Assembly (NCBI GenBank): GCA_018969605.1
Contig: JAGWXY010000009.1
Coordinates: forward strand, 1 to 47,553
Direction: 5' to 3'
Origin: Verrucomicrobiota bacterium
GTDB taxonomy: Bacteria > Verrucomicrobiota > Verrucomicrobiia > Verrucomicrobiales > Akkermansiaceae
DNA: 47,553 nt
Shown here: positions 2,759 to 39,132 of the stretch, one piece after another
Numbering within the stretch: position 1 is the first letter of the stretch
Layout of the letters: each line of letters begins with the position of its first letter
Translations under genes and position numbers: made by a program
The notes under the pieces: generated by a model
The model's database searches: none
The model's input: only the letters and a program-made list of their open reading frames with translations
What the model was told of the DNA's origin: nothing

Positions 2759-2792
2759 TCAACGAAATTGTCACATGACAAATTTGTAACTT
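2759..2792. promoter_or_regulatory. Pho-box-like elements upstream of the PEP-CTERM gene
   Basis: Two overlapping 7-4-7 elements are seen: TCAACGA-AATT-GTCACAT (2759-2776) and ATGACAA-ATTT-GTAACTT (2775-2792). The second has the same architecture as the two elements between pstS and phoU. Read on the minus strand it gives AAGTTAC-N4-TTGTCAT, which resembles PhoB direct repeats. The gene starts 62 bases downstream on the plus strand, so the orientation is opposite to that at pstS. PhoB binding is inferred. Confidence 0.45.
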
Positions 2793-2853: not shown

Positions 2854-4545
2854 ATGAAAAAAATCATCCATCACACACTCATCACGGCATCAATTGTGCC
2901 CTTCGTCATGCCCGTTGTGGCATCGGCCCAAATTCAGTTCCTCGGCGGCGCAAGCCTTCCATACGGCGGGGAAATCGTTTCGTACTCCAACGGCCAGATC
3001 CTCACCACCAATTCCGGCAACGGCAGCCATGGCATCCAAGCCTACACACTTGGCAGCAATGGCGCGCTTTCGTCCGGCATTTCCATCGACCTCGCATCGG
3101 CCTTTGGCGGAGCTGCCAATATCAGCTCGATTTCCAGCGTGCTCGCCGATAGCCGCGGCTTCGGCGTTGCCTCGATCATACCTACAGGAAAAACATCCAC
3201 GGATCTTGGCCGCATCGCGATCTTCAACAGCTCGACGGGCTCCATCCTCAAAACACTCGATGTCGGATATCACCCGGACTCGGTGGCCATCACGCCCGAT
3301 GGATCGAAACTCATCATCACTAACGAGGGTGAATTCGTCTCGACCGCAGCCGAGGCCACCTTCGCCCGACCGGGATCGATCAGCGTCGTCGACCTCTCGG
3401 GCGTCACCTCGGTGGATAATGTTTCCAACCTCAGTAGCTCGAATGTCGCGACCTACGATTTTTCCGCAGCCAACCTTGCCACAGGCGTGAGCCTCACCGG
3501 CATCCGCGACAACACTTTCGCCGCCAACAATGCGGGCACGACCGCGCTAATGGCCAACATCGAACCGGAATACACCACCGCTTCCAACACCAAGGCCTTT
3601 CTCACGCTTCAGGAAAACAACGCGATCGCGACCTTTGATTTCGCCACCGGAAAGTTTGAGAAAATCAGCAGTTTGGGAACCATCACCCAAACCATCGACG
3701 CCTCGGATCGTGACGGCACGAGCAATACTCCATCCATCAACATCAACGACGTGGTCAAGGGCCTTCCAATGCCGGACACAATCACCCAGTTCTCACGCGG
3801 CAGCAGCACTTATCTGGTGACGGCGAACGAAGGTGATGCACGCCCTGACAATGCCGACATCGCACGGGCAAACACTGCTGGCCTAGTCGACACGAGCGAT
3901 GGCGGCAGTGGTGATCTGTACTATGCAGGCAATGTCGGCAACACCGGCATCGGCCGTCTCAACATCCTCAAGGACATGGGCAACCTCGATGGCGATGCGG
4001 GCATCGAAGAGCCCACCATGATGGGCACCCGAAGTTTCTCAATCTGGAATGCCTCGACCCACGAGCTCTTGTTCGACAGTGGCAGCATGATCGAGCAGTA
4101 CGTCGCTGCCAATGACCCGACGACATTCAACATGAACGACGGACTCACAGCCAATTTCGATACACGCTCGGATGACAAAGGCCCTGAGCCCGAGGCACTG
4201 GCCTTCGGCTCCATCGGTGGTCGCGACTATATTTTCGTCGGGGCGGAGCGACAAAACGGCATCTTCCAGTTCGACATCACCGACTTCGGAAATGTGACCA
4301 TCACCAACTACTTCAACACCACAACCAGCACCGCCGACAGTGGGGGCGCGTTCATTTCGCCCGAGTCGATTGTGTTCGTCGATAGCGCAAGCAATCCGAC
4401 TGGACAGAACTTGCTCGTGGTTGGCTATGAAGGAACTGGCAGCAACGGCTCGATCGCCGTGTTCAGCGTGGTGCCCGAGCCTCATAGCGCCTTGCTTGTC
4501 GGCATTGCTGCGGTGCTTGGTGCCGCGCGCCGCCGTCGCGTCTGA
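2854..4545 (+). CDS. secreted PEP-CTERM protein, choice-of-anchor I-like beta-propeller
   Basis: A 563-aa exported protein. It has a signal peptide (MKKIIHHTLITASIVPF to the ASAQ cleavage region) and repeated beta-propeller-like blades such as HPDSVAITPDGSKLIITNEGE. A segment around GPEPEALAFGSIGGRDYIFVGAER is typical of choice-of-anchor I family proteins. The C-terminus is a PEP-CTERM sorting tail: VPEP at 540-543, a hydrophobic stretch, then ARRRRV. Such tails are known to be processed by exosortase-type systems and to place proteins at the cell surface. No exosortase is in this window. The enzymatic role is unknown, although some family members are named alkaline phosphatase-like. The ATG at 2854 is chosen over a TTG at 2821 because it starts the signal peptide. 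The gene is monocistronic between two terminators. Confidence 0.85.
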   Translation: MKKIIHHTLITASIVPFVMPVVASAQIQFLGGASLPYGGEIVSYSNGQILTTNSGNGSHGIQAYTLGSNGALSSGISIDLASAFGGAANISSISSVLADSRGFGVASIIPTGKTSTDLGRIAIFNSSTGSILKTLDVGYHPDSVAITPDGSKLIITNEGEFVSTAAEATFARPGSISVVDLSGVTSVDNVSNLSSSNVATYDFSAANLATGVSLTGIRDNTFAANNAGTTALMANIEPEYTTASNTKAFLTLQENNAIATFDFATGKFEKISSLGTITQTIDASDRDGTSNTPSININDVVKGLPMPDTITQFSRGSSTYLVTANEGDARPDNADIARANTAGLVDTSDGGSGDLYYAGNVGNTGIGRLNILKDMGNLDGDAGIEEPTMMGTRSFSIWNASTHELLFDSGSMIEQYVAANDPTTFNMNDGLTANFDTRSDDKGPEPEALAFGSIGGRDYIFVGAERQNGIFQFDITDFGNVTITNYFNTTTSTADSGGAFISPESIVFVDSASNPTGQNLLVVGYEGTGSNGSIAVFSVVPEPHSALLVGIAAVLGAARRRRV

Positions 4546-28921: not shown

Positions 28922-29749
28922 TCAACCAAAGCGGCCGCTGATGTAATCCTCGGTGCGCTTGACGGTCGGGTTGGTGAACATCTTGGTCGTTTCGCCAAAC
29001 TCGATCATTTCGCCCATGTAGAAAAATGCCGTCTTGTCGGAAACGCGCGAGGCCTGGTGCATGTTGTGGGTCACCACGACGAAGGTGTAGTCTTTCTTGA
29101 GGCTCCAAATCAGCTCCTCGACCTTCGCGGTGGCGATCGGGTCGAGCGCGCTGCAGGGTTCATCCATCAGCACGACGAGCGGCTTCACCGCAATGGTTCG
29201 GGCGATGCAGAGGCGTTGTTGCTGACCGCCGGAGAGGCCGAGCGCGGATTCGTTGAGGCGGTCCTTCACTTCGTCCCACAGGGCGGCGGCGCGGAGGCTT
29301 TCTTCGACCGATTGCTCGAGCACCGCTTTGTTGCGGATGCCGCGCATGCGCAGGCCGAAGGCGACATTTTCGAAAATGCTGCGCGGGAATGGATTGGATT
29401 TTTGGAACACCATGCCGACATCGCGGCGGAGCTTCACCACATCGACCGACGGGTCGTGGATCTCGATATCCTCGACGATGATTTTGCCGGCAGTGACGCG
29501 CGCGCCAATGATCTCGTCGTTCATGCGATTGATGCAGCGCAGCAGGGTCGACTTGCCGCAGCCGGAGGGCCCGATGAACGCGGTGACCGCGTTGCGGTCG
29601 AGATCGAGCGTGATGTTTTTGAGCGCCTCGGAAGAACCGTAGCTGAAACTGAGGTTCTGAATTTGCACGGCGCAGTTGCCGCCGGCCTGCGGGGTGCTGG
29701 CGGCGGTTTTCTCCGGGGATTCTTGCATGGAATTGTTGGTCGCGTTCAT
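28922..29749 (-). CDS. pstB: phosphate ABC transporter ATP-binding protein (second copy)
   Basis: A 275-aa ATPase of the PstSCAB phosphate importer. Walker A is GPSGCGKST, then [11 protein letters not shown] (Q-loop), signature [16 protein letters not shown], Walker [14 protein letters not shown] and the H-loop VTHN. A poorly conserved, Gln/Ser/Thr-rich N-terminal leader precedes the ABC domain. The ATG overlaps the stop of the upstream pstB by 4 bases. Two tandem pstB genes may have different regulation or form a heterodimer; this is inference. Confidence 0.93.
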
Positions 29750-30540
29750 CCGAAGCTGCCGGTGATGTAGGCCTCGGTTTGTGGGTCCGAGGGGTTTTCG
29801 AAAATTTTCATCGTGGGGCCGACTTCCACGAGCTTGCCGAGGTACATGAATGCCGTCTGGTCCGAGCAACGGGCGGCTTGTGCCATGTTGTGCGTGACGA
29901 TGACGATGGTGAATTTTTTCTTCAGTTCGGAGATTAGCTCTTCGATGCGCAGTGTCGCGAGCGGGTCGAGCGCGGCGCAGGGTTCGTCCATGAGCAGGAT
30001 CTCGGGTTCGGTGGCGATCGCGCGTGCGATGCAGAGGCGTTGTTGCTGGCCGCCGGAAAGCCCGAACGCCGATGTGTGGAGGCGGTCGCCGACTTCATCC
30101 CAGAGCGCGGCGTTGCGCAGAGATTTTTCGACGGCGTCGTCGATGTCCGAGCGATTTGTCATGCCCGCGATCCGCAGACCGTAGGCAACATTTTCGTAAA
30201 TCGATTTGGCGAAGGGATTGTACTTTTGGAACACCATGCCGACGCGGCGGCGGAGTTCCTGGATGTTGATGTCCTTGCGATAGATGTCGATGCCGTGGAC
30301 CTTGATCGTGCCGGCGGTGACATGTGCGGTAGAGATGCGGTCGTTGATGCGGTTGATGCAGCGGATGAGGGTCGACTTGCCGCAACCCGAGGGGCCGATG
30401 AACGCGGTGACCTTGCGCGCGGGCATGTCGAGGCTGACATCGTGCAGCGCCTGCTTTGAGCCGTAGGCAAATGATAGGTTCTGGATCTGGACGGCGGTCG
30501 ACATGGATGGGTGGGTATCCGCTGCGGGTGAATTTACCAT
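29746..30540 (-). CDS. pstB: phosphate ABC transporter ATP-binding protein (first copy)
   Basis: A 264-aa PstB with Walker [11 protein letters not shown]-loop [21 protein letters not shown], signature [16 protein letters not shown] and Walker [17 protein letters not shown]. It is clearly homologous to the next gene but diverged, so this is an old duplication. The first ATG (30540) overlaps the pstA stop by 7 bases. A second ATG at 30504 would start just before the ABC domain. Confidence 0.93.
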
Positions 30541-31664: not shown

Positions 31665-33572
31665 TTATTTTTTCGTCCGGGTGAGGAAATGGTGGGCGGT
31701 GGCGTTGATGCCGAGCACCACGACGAAGAGGGTGATGCCGATCACGAAGAGCGCTCGGTAGTGGACGCTGCCGAGCGGCACTTCGCCGAGCTCTTGAGCG
31801 ATGATGCCGGTGAGGGTGTGCGAGGGTTGGAAGAACGCGCCGATGCCTTCGCTGAAGTCGGGGATCTTGATGCGGTTGCCGGCGACCAGCAGCACGACCA
31901 TCGTTTCGCCGATCACGCGGCCAAGGCCGAGCAGCACGGCGGCGAGAATGCCGGAGAAGGCTGCGGGGACCATCACGCGGAAGGCGGTCTGGAGGCGTGA
32001 GGCGCCGAGCGCTTCGGAGGCTTCGGCATAGGCCGAAGGGACATTGTTGAGCGCGTCCTCGGCGAGCGAAAAAATCGTCGGCACACTCATCAATGCGAGC
32101 AAGCAACCGGCGGTGAAAATGTTGAGTCGCTCGTCGATCGGGAATCCGGGCACCCACCTGAGCGAATCATAGGTAGAAATTTCCCGCAGAATCGTGCCGA
32201 AGACCATGATGCCGATGAAGCCGAGCACCACCGAGGGGATCGCTTGAATGAACTCAATGACTGGCTTGACCAATGCCTGTTCGCGCGGAGCGGCGAATTG
32301 GTTGACATAAATCGCCGCACCGATGCCGACCGGGATGGCGATCGTGAGAGCGACGATGGCAATCATCAGTGAGCCGACCGCCAGCGGAATGATGCCATAA
32401 AAATCCTGCCATTCGCCGCCGGTGACCCATGACTTGCCGGTGAGGAAGGAAATGAATGCGGCGGATAGCGGCACCGGATCGGTATGGGTCCAGCTGTTGA
32501 TCTTGGCCGGTGTGGCCTTGATATCGGAGATCAAGACCGGCCATGCGGCTTTGGCGGCGTTGAGGTAACGCGAGGCTTTGGCTTGCGTGAGCGAGCCGGG
32601 AAGGCTTGGAAAAATTTCGCCGACCGAAGTGGCCAGCTGCTCGTGAACTTTCACGCAGTCGGGCTTTTTCTCCATCAGCGTCGCCATCGGGCCTTCGACA
32701 TCAGGCTTGTCCGCGAGTGCGGCCTTGGCATCGGCGATCAGCTTTTCGCGTTCAATCGGATCCTTGGCATTGGCGGCTGCGGCAAGCAGGGTTTTGCGGT
32801 CTTTTTCGAGAATGTCGGCTGTTTGGATCGCTTCCTTGGTGGCGGTGACCGACTCGGTCATTTCCATCACGATCGAGCCGAGGTCCATGCCGGCAGTCTC
32901 GAAGTTGTCGATCGTTTCACGAAACTTTTGCAGCGGCTCGGCATGCGATTGGCGAGCGGCGGCGAATGCGGCATTTAGCTTGGCCACGAGCGGCGGCTCA
33001 TCGGTCGCCTCGGCGGGCCGGTTGCGCAGCGAATCGATCAGTTCCTGGCGCTCGGCCTCGCTGAGGTGTGGGGTGGCAGGAAGATTGGTGAGGGCCTTGG
33101 CGCGCTGGGCCTCATAGTTGGCGCGCAGCACGGCGAGCATGCCGTCATCGCCGCCAGTCGTGGCAGCGGGATTGTTGAGGATCAGGTCGCGGGTCGGGCC
33201 GACTTGATCGTTGAAAGTGTTGTAGAGCGCGGAAGCTTCCTGCGAGCGAAGCAATTCATCAAGGCATTTGCCGTTGATCTCGGCCTGATAGGCACGGTTG
33301 AGAAGACTGGTGACCTGTTCGTGAGCAGTGAGATTTTTGCGCGAGATGTCGACGAACTCAAGGCCAGCGATGCGATAGACCTCCAGCTCGCGGCGATAAC
33401 CGGGAAAGAAACCCAAGCCCTCGCGCAGGAGGAAAACAATGATCAGAAGAAGAATGAAAATCGTGAGTCCGGCATTCGATGCGAAGAAGAACCGGATTGC
33501 CCGTTCAAAGGAAAAACCCCGCCGTTGGAAGCGATGGCCACTGGATTCGGATTGGGGATTTGGGGAAATCAT
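31665..33572 (-). CDS. pstC: phosphate ABC transporter permease PstC with a large periplasmic insert
   Basis: A 635-aa permease, about twice the usual PstC length of roughly 320. TM1 (LTIFILLLIIVFLL) lies near residues 28-42. The permease core begins at about residue 393 (GIIPLAVGSLMIAI) with the coupling motif EDALNNVPSAYAEASEALGASRLQT. Between them are some 320 mostly charged, helix-prone residues without membrane segments, likely periplasmic and partly coiled coil (EAERQELIDSL, EAIQTADILEKDRKTLLAAA). The insert may help capture PstS; this is inference. The ATG at 33572 is preferred because the 30 codons before it overlap a hairpin. Confidence 0.9.
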   Translation of the reverse strand: MISPNPQSESSGHRFQRRGFSFERAIRFFFASNAGLTIFILLLIIVFLLREGLGFFPGYRRELEVYRIAGLEFVDISRKNLTAHEQVTSLLNRAYQAEINGKCLDELLRSQEASALYNTFNDQVGPTRDLILNNPAATTGGDDGMLAVLRANYEAQRAKALTNLPATPHLSEAERQELIDSLRNRPAEATDEPPLVAKLNAAFAAARQSHAEPLQKFRETIDNFETAGMDLGSIVMEMTESVTATKEAIQTADILEKDRKTLLAAAANAKDPIEREKLIADAKAALADKPDVEGPMATLMEKKPDCVKVHEQLATSVGEIFPSLPGSLTQAKASRYLNAAKAAWPVLISDIKATPAKINSWTHTDPVPLSAAFISFLTGKSWVTGGEWQDFYGIIPLAVGSLMIAIVALTIAIPVGIGAAIYVNQFAAPREQALVKPVIEFIQAIPSVVLGFIGIMVFGTILREISTYDSLRWVPGFPIDERLNIFTAGCLLALMSVPTIFSLAEDALNNVPSAYAEASEALGASRLQTAFRVMVPAAFSGILAAVLLGLGRVIGETMVVLLVAGNRIKIPDFSEGIGAFFQPSHTLTGIIAQELGEVPLGSVHYRALFVIGITLFVVVLGINATAHHFLTRTKK

Positions 33573-33621
33573 GCAGGGCTGGCGAAGTGGAGCGCGGATG
33601 GAGGCTTTCGGCAAGCAAATG

Positions 33622-33657
33622 AAACGGGCATCGCTGGATCTGCAACGATGCCCGTTT
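33622..33657 (-). other. hairpin between pstS and pstC
   Basis: A perfect 12-bp inverted repeat (33622-33633 with 33646-33657) with a 12-base loop lies in the pstS-pstC gap. No strong U tract follows on the minus strand, so it is more likely a partial terminator or mRNA-stabilising structure than a full stop. Such structures are known to raise binding-protein levels over permease levels. A 9-bp direct repeat GGCAAGCAA (33610-33618 and 33658-33666) flanks it. Confidence 0.7.
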
Positions 33658-33663
33658 GGCAAG

Positions 33664-33694: not shown

Positions 33695-34495
33695 TCAGTT
33701 AGGAATGAATCCAACCTTCGTGACGATGGCCTGTCCGGCTGGTGATTCGATGAAGTCGAGGAAGGCCTGAGCTTCGGCGGTCGGTTTTTCCGGAGCGTAC
33801 AGGTAGCAGAGGCGGGCATAGGCGAATTTCTTCGCATTTGCGGCGACCGGCTCAACTCCGTCGATGGTGACGGTTTTGGTGCCGGGGGTCTTGGAATAAG
33901 CAAGACCGACATATCCGATGCCGTTCTTGTTCTTGGCCACTTCCTGCGCGATCTGCTCGTTGCCTGCCATCTTGAGCGAGGTGGACGGGTAGTCACGACC
34001 GCCCATGGCGAGCTTCTGCCAATCCTTGTAGGTGCCCGACGAGGTGTTGCGGGTGTAGATCGAGATCGCACCAGGGGCGCCGCCGATTTCCGACCAGTCC
34101 TTGATTTGACCGGTGAAGATCTTGGCGACCTGTGCCTTGGTGAGGTTCGAGACCGGCGAGTTCTTGTTCACGATCACACAAAGCATGTCGTGGCAGATCG
34201 GGTGTTCCTTGAGGTAAACCCCCTTGGTGCGGCAAAAGGTGCGCTCGTCGTCCTTGACCTTGCGCGAGGACATGCCGATCTGGGCAGTGCCGTTGGCAAG
34301 GGCCGGGAACGCGGTGGTCGAACCTTCCGCAGCGATTTCGAACTTCACACCTTTGTTGCCTGCGGCCTTGAAGGCCTCGGCAAGTTGCGGGACGAGCTTG
34401 GCGCCTAGGGTATCGCTACCCTTGATGCTCAGCGTTTGGGCTCCCGCCATGGTAACCAGGGCTGCGGACGCGATCAGTGTGTGTATGGCTTTCAT
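33695..34495 (-). CDS. pstS: phosphate-binding protein PstS
   Basis: Periplasmic substrate-binding protein (266 aa) with a signal peptide (MKAIHTLIASAALVTMAGAQ). It has KGSDTLGAKLVPQLAEAF and ISIYTRNTSSGTYKDW, whose Ser/Thr/Gly/Arg residues bind phosphate in this family, and the EGSTTAFPALANGTAQIGMSSR segment. Shorter than E. coli PstS (about 346 aa), it fits the compact PstS_2 type. No lipobox Cys is present. It is first in the pst operon, and the Pho-box-like elements upstream suggest induction by phosphate limitation. Confidence 0.93.
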   Translation of the reverse strand: MKAIHTLIASAALVTMAGAQTLSIKGSDTLGAKLVPQLAEAFKAAGNKGVKFEIAAEGSTTAFPALANGTAQIGMSSRKVKDDERTFCRTKGVYLKEHPICHDMLCVIVNKNSPVSNLTKAQVAKIFTGQIKDWSEIGGAPGAISIYTRNTSSGTYKDWQKLAMGGRDYPSTSLKMAGNEQIAQEVAKNKNGIGYVGLAYSKTPGTKTVTIDGVEPVAANAKKFAYARLCYLYAPEKPTAEAQAFLDFIESPAGQAIVTKVGFIPN

Positions 34496-34731
34496 TTGTA
34501 TGTTGGTAGTGGAGATGGTTCAGAACGAAAAACTATGCTTGTGAGTGCGTGTTAATCACGAATTTCTGGCGGTGACAATCAACCATTGCAAGCCCGATGG
34601 GACATAAATCCGCAGGGCTACCGACGCGATCGTGCTAAGGCTGTGGATATTGGTCATTATTTCGGGTCATGCGGCCGATAACTTTTAGTGACAAAGCATG
34701 CTTGTATGCGGTTAAAACAGAGAAAATTATC

Positions 34732-34749
34732 GTGACGAAGATGTAACAA
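34732..34749 (-). promoter_or_regulatory. Pho-box-like element 1 of pstS/phoU
   Basis: Plus-strand GTGACGA-AGAT-GTAACAA; on the pstS strand this reads TTGTTAC-ATCT-TCGTCAC. This is two 7-mers 11 bp apart, as in PhoB-type direct repeats (CTGTCAT-N4 pattern). It lies about 240 bases upstream of pstS. No phoB or phoR gene is in the window, so the regulator is inferred. Confidence 0.55.
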
Positions 34750-34804
34750 ATCGTTCCCCGCGGCGCGCATGACTTGACCTTTGTTGGGCGTTATTGGCGA
34801 GGGC

Positions 34805-34833
34805 ATGAGATTTTTATGACGAAATTGTTACAT
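34805..34833 (-). promoter_or_regulatory. Pho-box-like element 2 of pstS/phoU
   Basis: On the pstS strand this is ATGTAAC-AATT-TCGTCAT followed by AAAA and ATCTCAT: three 7-mers with exact 11-bp periodicity and A/T spacers. It is the best Pho-box candidate in the window. It lies 162 bases upstream of phoU and 310 bases upstream of pstS, so it could serve either gene. Confidence 0.6.
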
Positions 34834-34995
34834 TTGGCCTAATTTTGGCTTTATCTCTTGTGCGTCAATTCAGCCTTGATTTGGCTGTGATATGCTCAAT
34901 GTTAGTGATTCCGATACATTCAAAGGCTAAAAGCTCCATTTGTACCTGCCATTACTAAATTCCCTACGGTCGACAGCCCCCAACGACTCAGATCC

Positions 34996-35679
34996 ATGCA
35001 AAACCCCCACATTCTTCACGATTTTGATCAGGCGATCACATCCCTGCGCGCCGAGGTGATCTCGATGGCTGGCAAGGCCCGTCACAACCTCGAGCGGGCC
35101 ATCCGCGCGCTGCTGCAGCGTAACATCGATTTGGCCAACGCGGTGATCGCCGACGACGACGAGGTCGACGAGCACGAGCGCCACATCGACAAGCTCGGCA
35201 TGGAAATGCTGGTCCGCTTCCACCCGCTCGCCTCCGACCTGCGGTTGGTGGTTTCTTCGATGAAAATTTCGATGAACCTCGAGCGCATTTCGGATCACGC
35301 GACCAACATCGCCAAGCGCGCGAAAAAAATCAGCTCGAGCCAGGAGTTGCATGACACGACGCTCATTGAGCCAATTTACACCTTGGCCGACCAATTGCTG
35401 CGCGACGCGATTGCATCCTACTCGGAGCAGGATTCCGCCCTCGGTGCCTCACTGCACGCCCGCGACAAGGAGCTCGACCGAATTTACAAAGAAGCCTCTG
35501 CGACCTTTGCCTCGCGCATCGAGCAATCGGCGGGGCGCAGCCAAGACTACCTGCACTTGATTCTTGTGCTTCGCTCGCTCGAGCGGGTCGGCGATCTCGC
35601 GGTCAATGTCGGTGAGGACGCGGTGTTTCTCGGCACCGCGCGCGACATGCGCCACGAGTCGAACCGCAGCTTGAGCTGA
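34996..35679 (+). CDS. phoU: phosphate signalling protein PhoU
   Basis: A 227-aa cytoplasmic protein with two PhoU three-helix domains. They contain ADDDEVDEHERHIDKLGMEMLVRFHPLASDLRLVVSSMKIS and its second-half counterpart ARDKELDRIYKEA to RSLERVGDLAVNVGEDAVFL. The acidic E/DxxxD clusters are metal ligands in known structures. PhoU links the Pst transporter to the PhoR/PhoB sensor pair and represses the regulon when phosphate is plentiful. Here it is divergent from pstS rather than at the operon end, so it has its own promoter. Confidence 0.94.
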   Translation: MQNPHILHDFDQAITSLRAEVISMAGKARHNLERAIRALLQRNIDLANAVIADDDEVDEHERHIDKLGMEMLVRFHPLASDLRLVVSSMKISMNLERISDHATNIAKRAKKISSSQELHDTTLIEPIYTLADQLLRDAIASYSEQDSALGASLHARDKELDRIYKEASATFASRIEQSAGRSQDYLHLILVLRSLERVGDLAVNVGEDAVFLGTARDMRHESNRSLS

Positions 35680-37474: not shown

Positions 37475-38833
37475 CTATGCGCCCTTCACGGCATCGATGA
37501 TGACCTGATGAATGTCCTCGGCGCAGTGCGCTGCGGAGTCGGCACCGATCAGCACCGGGCGTTCGTCTGCGGGCACCTTGTCGCGCCCGTGCGAGCCTTT
37601 CACGCATGAGGCATCGAGCGGGATCACATCGAGCAAACACCGCAGGCCGAGTTTTTTTTTCAGGAGAAATCCAGCAATTTTGAGCTTTGGAAAATGCAGC
37701 TTCGGATCGATGAAAAGTTCGCAGGGGTCGTAGCCCGGCTTGCGGTGGATGTCGATGGTGCGCGCGTAGTCGGGCGCGACTTCATCATCATTCCAAAAGT
37801 AATAAGTGAACCACGCATCGGCCTCGGCGATCGCGATCAAGTCCCCTGCCCGTTCGGTGGCCACACCATCGCCCCAGAGCTCGCGCGGCAATCTCACCTC
37901 ATCGATGCCCGGCGTTTGATCGAGCAGGGCACGCACCTCATCGCTGATACTTGGGTCGTTCACATAAACATGCGCGACTTGGTGATCGGCGATTGCAAAG
38001 GCACGCGAGCCACCGCAGTCGAGAGTTTCGCGGCCGAGTTCATTTTTGAGCGAGAGCCAACCTTTTTGCCGAAACAATCGGTTCAGGTGCACCGGTCGGC
38101 TCACCGGTGAAATGCCATATTCGGAAAGCACGATCACGCGCACTCCGCGAGATTGATAGAACGCGATCAGGTCGCTCGCAACGCAATCGATTTGTTGCAA
38201 CTCGGCAGGAATCTCCGACGCATGCGGGCCAAGCTTTTGCAGCGAATAATCCAGATGCGGCAGGTAGACCAAGCTCAGCGTTGGCGAATGTTTTTTTTCG
38301 ATCCACTTCGCGGATGAGGCGATCCATTCGGACGAGGCGATACCCGCGGCCGGACCCCAAAACGCGGGAAACGGAAATTCGCCGAGGTCGCGTTTGAGTT
38401 CGTCGCGAAGCAGCATCGGCTGCGTGTGGATGTCGAAGACCTTGCGTCCGTCGGCCGGATAAAGCGGCCTTGGCGTGATGGAGAAATCCACCGCCGCGTG
38501 CATGTTGTACCACCAGAAAAGTTTCGCGCAGGTGAAGCCCGGGACTTCGCGGCGCAGGCGTTCCCAAATTTTTTCACCGCGCACGATGTGGTTGCTTTGT
38601 TTCCAAAACCGCGGCTCGGCCGACTCGCGATCGTACCAGCCATTGGCCACGATGCCATGTAAGCCGACTGTTTCGCCCGTGGTGATGGCCGACTGCGCGG
38701 TGCAGGTCACGGCAGGAAATGCCGGCGCGTAGGATTGGATCCCCTGCTCGCGGGCAAACGCCGCAAGGCCCGGCGTGTGAACGCCGAGCAGCGACTCGGA
38801 AAGACCGACAATGTTGAGAACGGCGACTCGCAT
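37475..38833 (-). CDS. alkaline phosphatase superfamily nucleotide pyrophosphatase/phosphodiesterase
   Basis: A 452-aa enzyme of the type I phosphodiesterase/nucleotide pyrophosphatase group. MRVAVLNIVGLSESLLG opens the domain. PAVTCTAQSAITTGE supplies the likely Thr nucleophile, and HGIVANGWYDRE, FWKQSNHIVRGEKIW, LPHLDYSLQKLGPHA and VIVLSEYGISPVSRPVHLNR hold probable metal ligands. It resembles the EboF-type phosphatases of the eustigmatophyte/ebo operon, but no other ebo genes are adjacent. No signal peptide is seen, so it should be cytoplasmic. An ATG at 38917 would extend it by 28 residues. It may be cotranscribed with pgsA. Confidence 0.83.
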   Translation of the reverse strand: MRVAVLNIVGLSESLLGVHTPGLAAFAREQGIQSYAPAFPAVTCTAQSAITTGETVGLHGIVANGWYDRESAEPRFWKQSNHIVRGEKIWERLRREVPGFTCAKLFWWYNMHAAVDFSITPRPLYPADGRKVFDIHTQPMLLRDELKRDLGEFPFPAFWGPAAGIASSEWIASSAKWIEKKHSPTLSLVYLPHLDYSLQKLGPHASEIPAELQQIDCVASDLIAFYQSRGVRVIVLSEYGISPVSRPVHLNRLFRQKGWLSLKNELGRETLDCGGSRAFAIADHQVAHVYVNDPSISDEVRALLDQTPGIDEVRLPRELWGDGVATERAGDLIAIAEADAWFTYYFWNDDEVAPDYARTIDIHRKPGYDPCELFIDPKLHFPKLKIAGFLLKKKLGLRCLLDVIPLDASCVKGSHGRDKVPADERPVLIGADSAAHCAEDIHQVIIDAVKGA

Positions 38834-39132
38834 GTTGCGGGGATGCGCGCGAAACTTTGCGCCATGCGCGGCCAACAAGCAAGCGGCCCAGCGCAGCGGA
38901 CCGGAAGCATCTTGCATGGGCGAGCCCGCTTTTACGGTTTGACCCGACGGCGGCCGCTGGTAGCCTTGGCCCGTGAACCTCCTTCCCAACGGCAATTTCC
39001 TGCGCCCCCTGCTTCTAGGGTTGGCCGCCCGTTGACTTTTTCCTGCTTCACATTTTGTCACCGGCCCGCCCATCCTCTTGGCGATTTTCCGGTCCGTTTT
39101 TCCAACCGAATTTTTCCCATCACCCGATCCCC
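38834..39132. other. divergent region between the phosphatase gene and leuA
   Basis: A 299-base gap with no credible ORF. A TTGACT at 39032-39037 followed by an AT-rich stretch is a plausible leuA -35, without a clear -10. No leader peptide with a Leu run, and no attenuator hairpin, was found. Confidence 0.4.

Follow-up and report, generated by a model that had tools for sequence, protein, structure and literature searches.

Pho-box-like elements upstream of the pst genes and of a choice-of-anchor I PEP-CTERM gene in Akkermansiaceae

We analysed a 47.5-kb stretch of an Akkermansiaceae genome (the window) and found three elements to which the phosphate-starvation regulator PhoB very likely binds. 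Two of them (boxes A and B) lie between the divergent pstS and phoU genes, and the third (element C) precedes a gene for a surface protein of the choice-of-anchor I (choice_anch_I) family that ends in a PEP-CTERM anchor. We consider it highly probable that these elements are PhoB boxes serving the pst genes and the choice_anch_I gene in one regulon. Three things can be read directly in the sequence: the boxes, the fact that they are conserved before phosphate genes throughout the family, and their enrichment ahead of choice_anch_I genes.

Three elements of one layout in the window

The layout RTGACRA-N4-GTWAC, which the original prediction had assigned to three elements, matches the window exactly three times, at 2775, 34732 and 34816, compared with 0.01 matches expected per window from dinucleotide shuffles. 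The elements and their common layout are thereby confirmed, and so are the 11-bp-spaced repeats that had been described on the pstS strand, where the sites read as 7-4-7 direct repeats with half-sites of ~7 bp at an 11-bp step. The features of the two loci are as follows.

2768..2774, plus strand: extra TTGTCAC half-site beside element C, at a distance of 16 bp from the TTGTAAC half-site; kept in the close relative G123 (alignment)
2775..2792, minus strand: Pho-box-like element C, AAGTTAC-aaat-TTGTCAT, ~60 bp ahead of the PEP-CTERM gene of the choice_anch_I family
2854..4545, plus strand: choice-of-anchor I protein, 563 aa; PF22494; NF038117 at 345.3 bits against a cut-off of 300; signal-peptide-like start; C-terminal PEP-CTERM above cut-off
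28922..29869, minus strand: pstB ATPase; TIGR00972 above cut-off
29746..30540, minus strand: first ABC ATPase of the pst cluster; PF00005
30534..31661, minus strand: pstA permease; TIGR00974 above cut-off
31665..33662, minus strand: pstC permease; TIGR02138 above cut-off
33695..34495, minus strand: pstS, phosphate-binding protein; PF12849; TIGR02136 at 205 bits, just below the cut-off of 206.6
34732..34749, minus strand: Pho box A, reading TTGTTAC-atct-TCGTCAC in the direction of pstS, whose start codon it precedes by ~236 bp
34816..34833, minus strand: Pho box B, reading ATGTAAC-aatt-TCGTCAT in the direction of pstS, located between the divergent pstS and phoU genes, ~162 bp ahead of the start codon of phoU
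34996..35679, plus strand: phoU, divergent from pstS; PF01895; TIGR02135 above cut-off

The pattern was fitted to the three window sites themselves, and an independent matrix is the fair test. We built ours from the pstS upstream regions of other Akkermansiaceae genomes, with the window's own genome excluded. The top three sites of the window with this relatives-only matrix are box A (18.2, at 34728-34751), box B (18.1, at 34812-34835) and element C (15.8, at 2771-2794), and the same three rank first when the whole genus is left out of the matrix (17.5, 19.7 and 14.1, respectively). In simulation, a score of at least 15.8 arises by chance ~0.11 times per window and 5.4 times per genome. The two pst sites are significant on their own scores, and element C alone is modestly significant.

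The pst boxes stand at ~236 and ~320 bp from pstS, farther than in most relatives. G123 has a better-preserved box pair (28.2 and 27.7, 83 bp apart) at the equivalent place before phoU, and box B is conserved there in the alignment. We found no sigma-70 -35/-10 pair in the pst region, which fits an activator-dependent promoter. Near the pst-phoU cluster, positions 37475-39073 (minus strand) encode a Type I phosphodiesterase/nucleotide pyrophosphatase, with no nearby Pho box above 8 bits.

A near-palindromic motif upstream of pstS across the family

An unsupervised motif search of the 600 bp upstream of pstS homologs from 29 other genomes of the family returned TGTGACRNNNYTGTCACA (TGTGAC-R-N3-Y-TGTCACA) as the best motif, present in 24 of the 29 upstream regions and situated mostly 60-150 bp before the gene. 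The five regions that lack it all come from the window's own genus, and in at least three of these genomes (L111, L113 and L115) a Porin_O_P-type gene before or near pstS bears the box; the porin of L111 is PF07396, the phosphate-selective porin. The family consensus is a near-perfect palindrome, TGTGAC-N6-GTCACA, with G in the left half-site and C in the right. As GTNAC has the same form on either strand, the box is well matched in both directions, and the two orientations are used about equally, both by the best pstS sites (12 plus, 13 minus) and by the choice_anch_I boxes (6 and 6). The reversed orientation of element C, which had been counted against it, is therefore no objection.

Box targets in the genome and in its relatives

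The window's genome is a 2.43-Mb assembly of 150 contigs. Two search patterns were discarded: RTGACRA-N4-GTWAC was too narrow, giving four matches genome-wide, the fourth of which (C54:24265) precedes an agt-plcP fusion gene, and a half-site score devised by hand was not stringent enough. A sequence model made from the same pstS-upstream sites was used in a non-exhaustive search, in which 150 of 326 first-look candidates were scored and the two pst sites were not listed. Among the candidates scored, matches lie upstream of the agt-plcP fusion, a ShlB/FhaC-like gene, phoB-phoR, a divergent PEP-CTERM-family pair and the choice_anch_I gene (element C). Genome-wide, TGTNACN5YGTNAC was matched 12 times, at nine places, and its reversed control once; three of the nine places look unrelated, two being near integrase-like genes and one inside a dehydrogenase-complex gene. 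A tandem GGTGACAAATTGGTGACAAA-like sequence occurs near the start of two integrase-like genes (L306 and L307, on contigs C71 and C92); despite its resemblance to a Pho box, it probably represents a site of another type.

The agt-plcP fusion (L004:1-1425, minus strand, contig C54) joins a GT4 glycosyltransferase and, behind it, a PlcP-like metallophosphoesterase in one ORF; agt-plcP genes serve the synthesis of phosphate-free lipids. A strong Pho box lies 56-75 bp upstream of the fusion in at least six Akkermansiaceae genomes (C54 of the window's genome, L131, L129, L136, L279 and L288). The boxed ShlB/FhaC-like outer-membrane gene (L182:392-3901, contig C12) recurs in L125, L114, L278, L281 and L294. 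On C12 it is followed by a DUF2341-laminin-MotA/ExbB protein and then by TonB-like and porin-like ORFs, a cluster that may form an energised system for uptake or secretion across the outer membrane during phosphate starvation.

On contig C26 (L180:5908-14051), two divergent PEP-CTERM-family paralogs, one of 306 aa with PEP-CTERM and the other a 1789-aa repeat protein, each have their own strong Pho box, with a DDE transposase gene inserted between them. Similar boxed pairs occur in several relatives, and a second PEP-CTERM family (GDLVLFFQ...YxNLG) carries strong boxes in many of them (26.4, 28.9, 26.7, 22.3 and others). A general link between PEP-CTERM proteins and Pho control was rejected: within the stretches scanned, which at two or more loci stopped short of the gene start, only the C26 gene and the window gene have a box among the 11 PEP-CTERM genes of the genome.

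Across 18 further genomes, ~31 of 47 places (our own tally) lie before classical phosphate genes, namely pst genes, phoB, Porin_O_P, DUF47 (DUF47/PhoU_div), PHO4 permease, metallophosphoesterase and the agt-plcP fusion; the pstS sites of G036, G059, G096 and G082 belonged to the training set and the other targets did not. ShlB/FhaC-like genes account for five further places, the PEP-CTERM gene pair for three, and GAPDH and a phospholipid methyltransferase-like gene for one each, leaving ~6 others (e.g. aminotransferase, CheA). The glyceraldehyde-3-phosphate dehydrogenase gene has a Pho box 51-53 bp before its start in L126 (G096) and L153 (G059), and a Pho-box-like site precedes one aspartate-type aminotransferase in two genomes, L121 (G076) and L293 (G061). 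The proposed identity as a Pho box is thus borne out by comparison: the motif is conserved upstream of most pstS genes, and matches concentrate before pst, phoB, Porin_O_P, PHO4, DUF47/PhoU_div and agt-plcP. Scanning the genome and its relatives with a matrix gave enrichment before phosphate genes, the opposite of a scatter through gene interiors.

The regulator of the boxes is most likely a PhoB-like protein encoded on contig C54. This response regulator (Response_reg and Trans_reg_C) adjoins a PAS-HisKA-HATPase kinase and is preceded by a box of its own. At 215 bits it lies below the TIGR02154 cut-off of 296, and it is one of three full-length PhoB/OmpR-type candidates in the genome. In at least eight genomes, phoB has a box before its start.

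The choice-of-anchor I family and element C

In the genus, 21 choice_anch_I genes have a visible start, and for 12 of them the 240 bp upstream contain a match above 13 bits, compared with 0.04-0.07 genes expected by chance; this count ignores relatedness and rests on chosen start codons, so that its p-value should not be read literally. Without the window gene, 11 of 20 are boxed. Elsewhere in these loci, over 81,272 positions, no match above 13 bits occurs, and together with the reversed-pattern control this indicates that the box is rare within genes and elsewhere outside upstream regions. In many homologs the box stands 15-95 bp before the start codon. The boxed proteins range from single-domain forms (L080, L084 and L090) to large ones with 5'-nucleotidase-like regions (L076, L085 and L086), and several are fusions of choice_anch_I with UshA/5'-nucleotidase-like regions. 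With the Akkermansiaceae matrix, the choice_anch_I genes of other phyla have no clear box, which confines the claim to Akkermansiaceae and near relatives.

Element C itself has the lowest score among the boxes found in its genome (the others score 18-28), and a further match at 2755-2778 overlaps it (11.5). The G123 ortholog (86%) has weaker overlapping matches of 12.6 and 12.3, or 13.6 with a symmetric matrix, and the relatives-only matrix finds no match upstream of the G136 ortholog (73%). In G123 both strong half-sites are kept, in a core block that lies beside gapped, diverged sequence farther upstream. The claim for element C on its own score is accordingly a modest one, and it is the choice_anch_I family that supplies real evidence. 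The predicted phosphate regulation of the choice-of-anchor I gene is thus supported for the family by comparison, and the window site by itself is weak. Phosphate control of the family is well supported by the distribution of boxes, and the boxed surface proteins, i.e. the choice_anch_I beta-propeller family and the second PEP-CTERM family, are probably made when phosphate is scarce.

Alternative explanations

One alternative accepts the pst boxes as real and takes element C for a chance match, or a decayed and functionless one, in this species. The low score of element C and the chance rate at that score speak for it, as do the weaker match in G123, the lack of one in G136 and the spacing of the half-sites best kept in G123, which at 16 bp is off the 11-bp step. 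We nevertheless consider it unlikely, because the 60 bp between element C and the start codon match the placement of the box in many homologs, because the family is enriched in boxes with or without the window gene, and because G123 has kept the core block with both half-sites next to diverged sequence.

That another dimeric regulator of palindromes, CRP-like or of the OmpR family, binds the motif and co-regulates the phosphate genes is improbable. The near-perfect palindrome of the consensus is unusual among E. coli-type PhoB boxes, and three PhoB/OmpR-type candidates are available; however, the targets form a textbook Pho regulon that includes phoB itself, the 11-bp repeat is better preserved in the window sites than the palindrome, and (C/T)GTNAC repeats are reported to be recognised by the PhoB of D. 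vulgaris (PMC3333781). Chance similarity, or a general feature of AT-rich promoters, is very improbable indeed: the original pattern was derived post hoc from the three sites, but the independent matrix, the reversed-pattern control and the off-target counts exclude chance as the explanation of its fit, and the AT-rich feature with it. PhoB boxes shared by the pst and choice_anch_I genes are hence the reading that we prefer.

Fold and possible role of the choice-of-anchor I protein

The window protein is modelled, with moderate confidence (pLDDT 71), as a beta-propeller. Sequence, profile and fold searches returned generic propellers, with no PhoX or phytase among the matches listed, and the fold comparison did not separate a phosphatase from other propellers. 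The family has invariant acidic motifs throughout, EPE and EGD among them, with many invariant Asp/Glu residues. Our best guess is a role in phosphate scavenging, because the same domain is fused to UshA-like nucleotidases under the same box. A bolder proposal, which we put forward tentatively, is that the choice_anch_I propeller may be an unrecognised surface phosphoesterase or organic-phosphate-binding module of the Pho response, with a PEP-CTERM anchor in one branch and a fused 5'-nucleotidase in others, and that the GDLVLFFQ...YxNLG family may be a dedicated phosphate-starvation surface protein of Akkermansiaceae.

A proposed model for the phosphate response

We propose that the box consists of two head-to-tail (C/T)GTNAC half-sites at an 11-bp step, one turn of DNA, that would have drifted towards the palindrome TGTGACRNNNYTGTCACA in Akkermansiaceae. 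Under phosphate starvation, the PhoR-like kinase of C54 would phosphorylate the neighbouring PhoB-like regulator, which would in turn be expected to bind boxes A and B (34732 and 34816) and to activate pstSCAB and possibly the divergent phoU. Through element C, the choice-of-anchor I PEP-CTERM protein would join this regulon, and once anchored at the surface it would probably help to win phosphate from organic matter, as a phosphoesterase or a binding propeller.

A search of the open-access literature found no published Pho box for Verrucomicrobiota. With the matrix described here, the phosphate response of freshwater Akkermansiaceae can be read from genome sequences. The choice-of-anchor I family, widespread but unstudied, and PEP-CTERM surface proteins would also be linked to phosphate starvation, and proteins so far named only by their anchor would gain a directly testable function.

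Comparison with known systems

The E. coli PhoB box consists of CTGTCAT repeats with a 4-bp spacer, as given in PMC3333781. The Akkermansiaceae box shares with it the 7-4-7 direct repeat, the 11-bp step and the position before pst and phoB genes, but its half-site ends in AC rather than AT and its consensus is near-palindromic. The same paper reports (c/t)GT(n)AC repeats for PhoB (DVU1083) of D. vulgaris Hildenborough, and our box agrees with these in half-site consensus, tandem layout and location upstream of pstSCA. The suggestion that the box is specific to this lineage is hence not upheld. The targets differ: the portions of that paper considered here note no PEP-CTERM target for PhoB, and there PEP-CTERM genes are targets of DVUA0057.

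In marine bacteria, the plcP-agt genes of lipid remodelling have Pho boxes, and PlcP has been noted in Verrucomicrobia (PMC4796936). Akkermansiaceae likewise place a glycosyltransferase and a PlcP-like metallophosphoesterase under a Pho box, but in several members both domains share one ORF. Surface 5'-nucleotidases of the UshA/Nt5e type are fused to the choice_anch_I propeller in several boxed homologs, whereas the window protein consists of the propeller and the PEP-CTERM anchor only.
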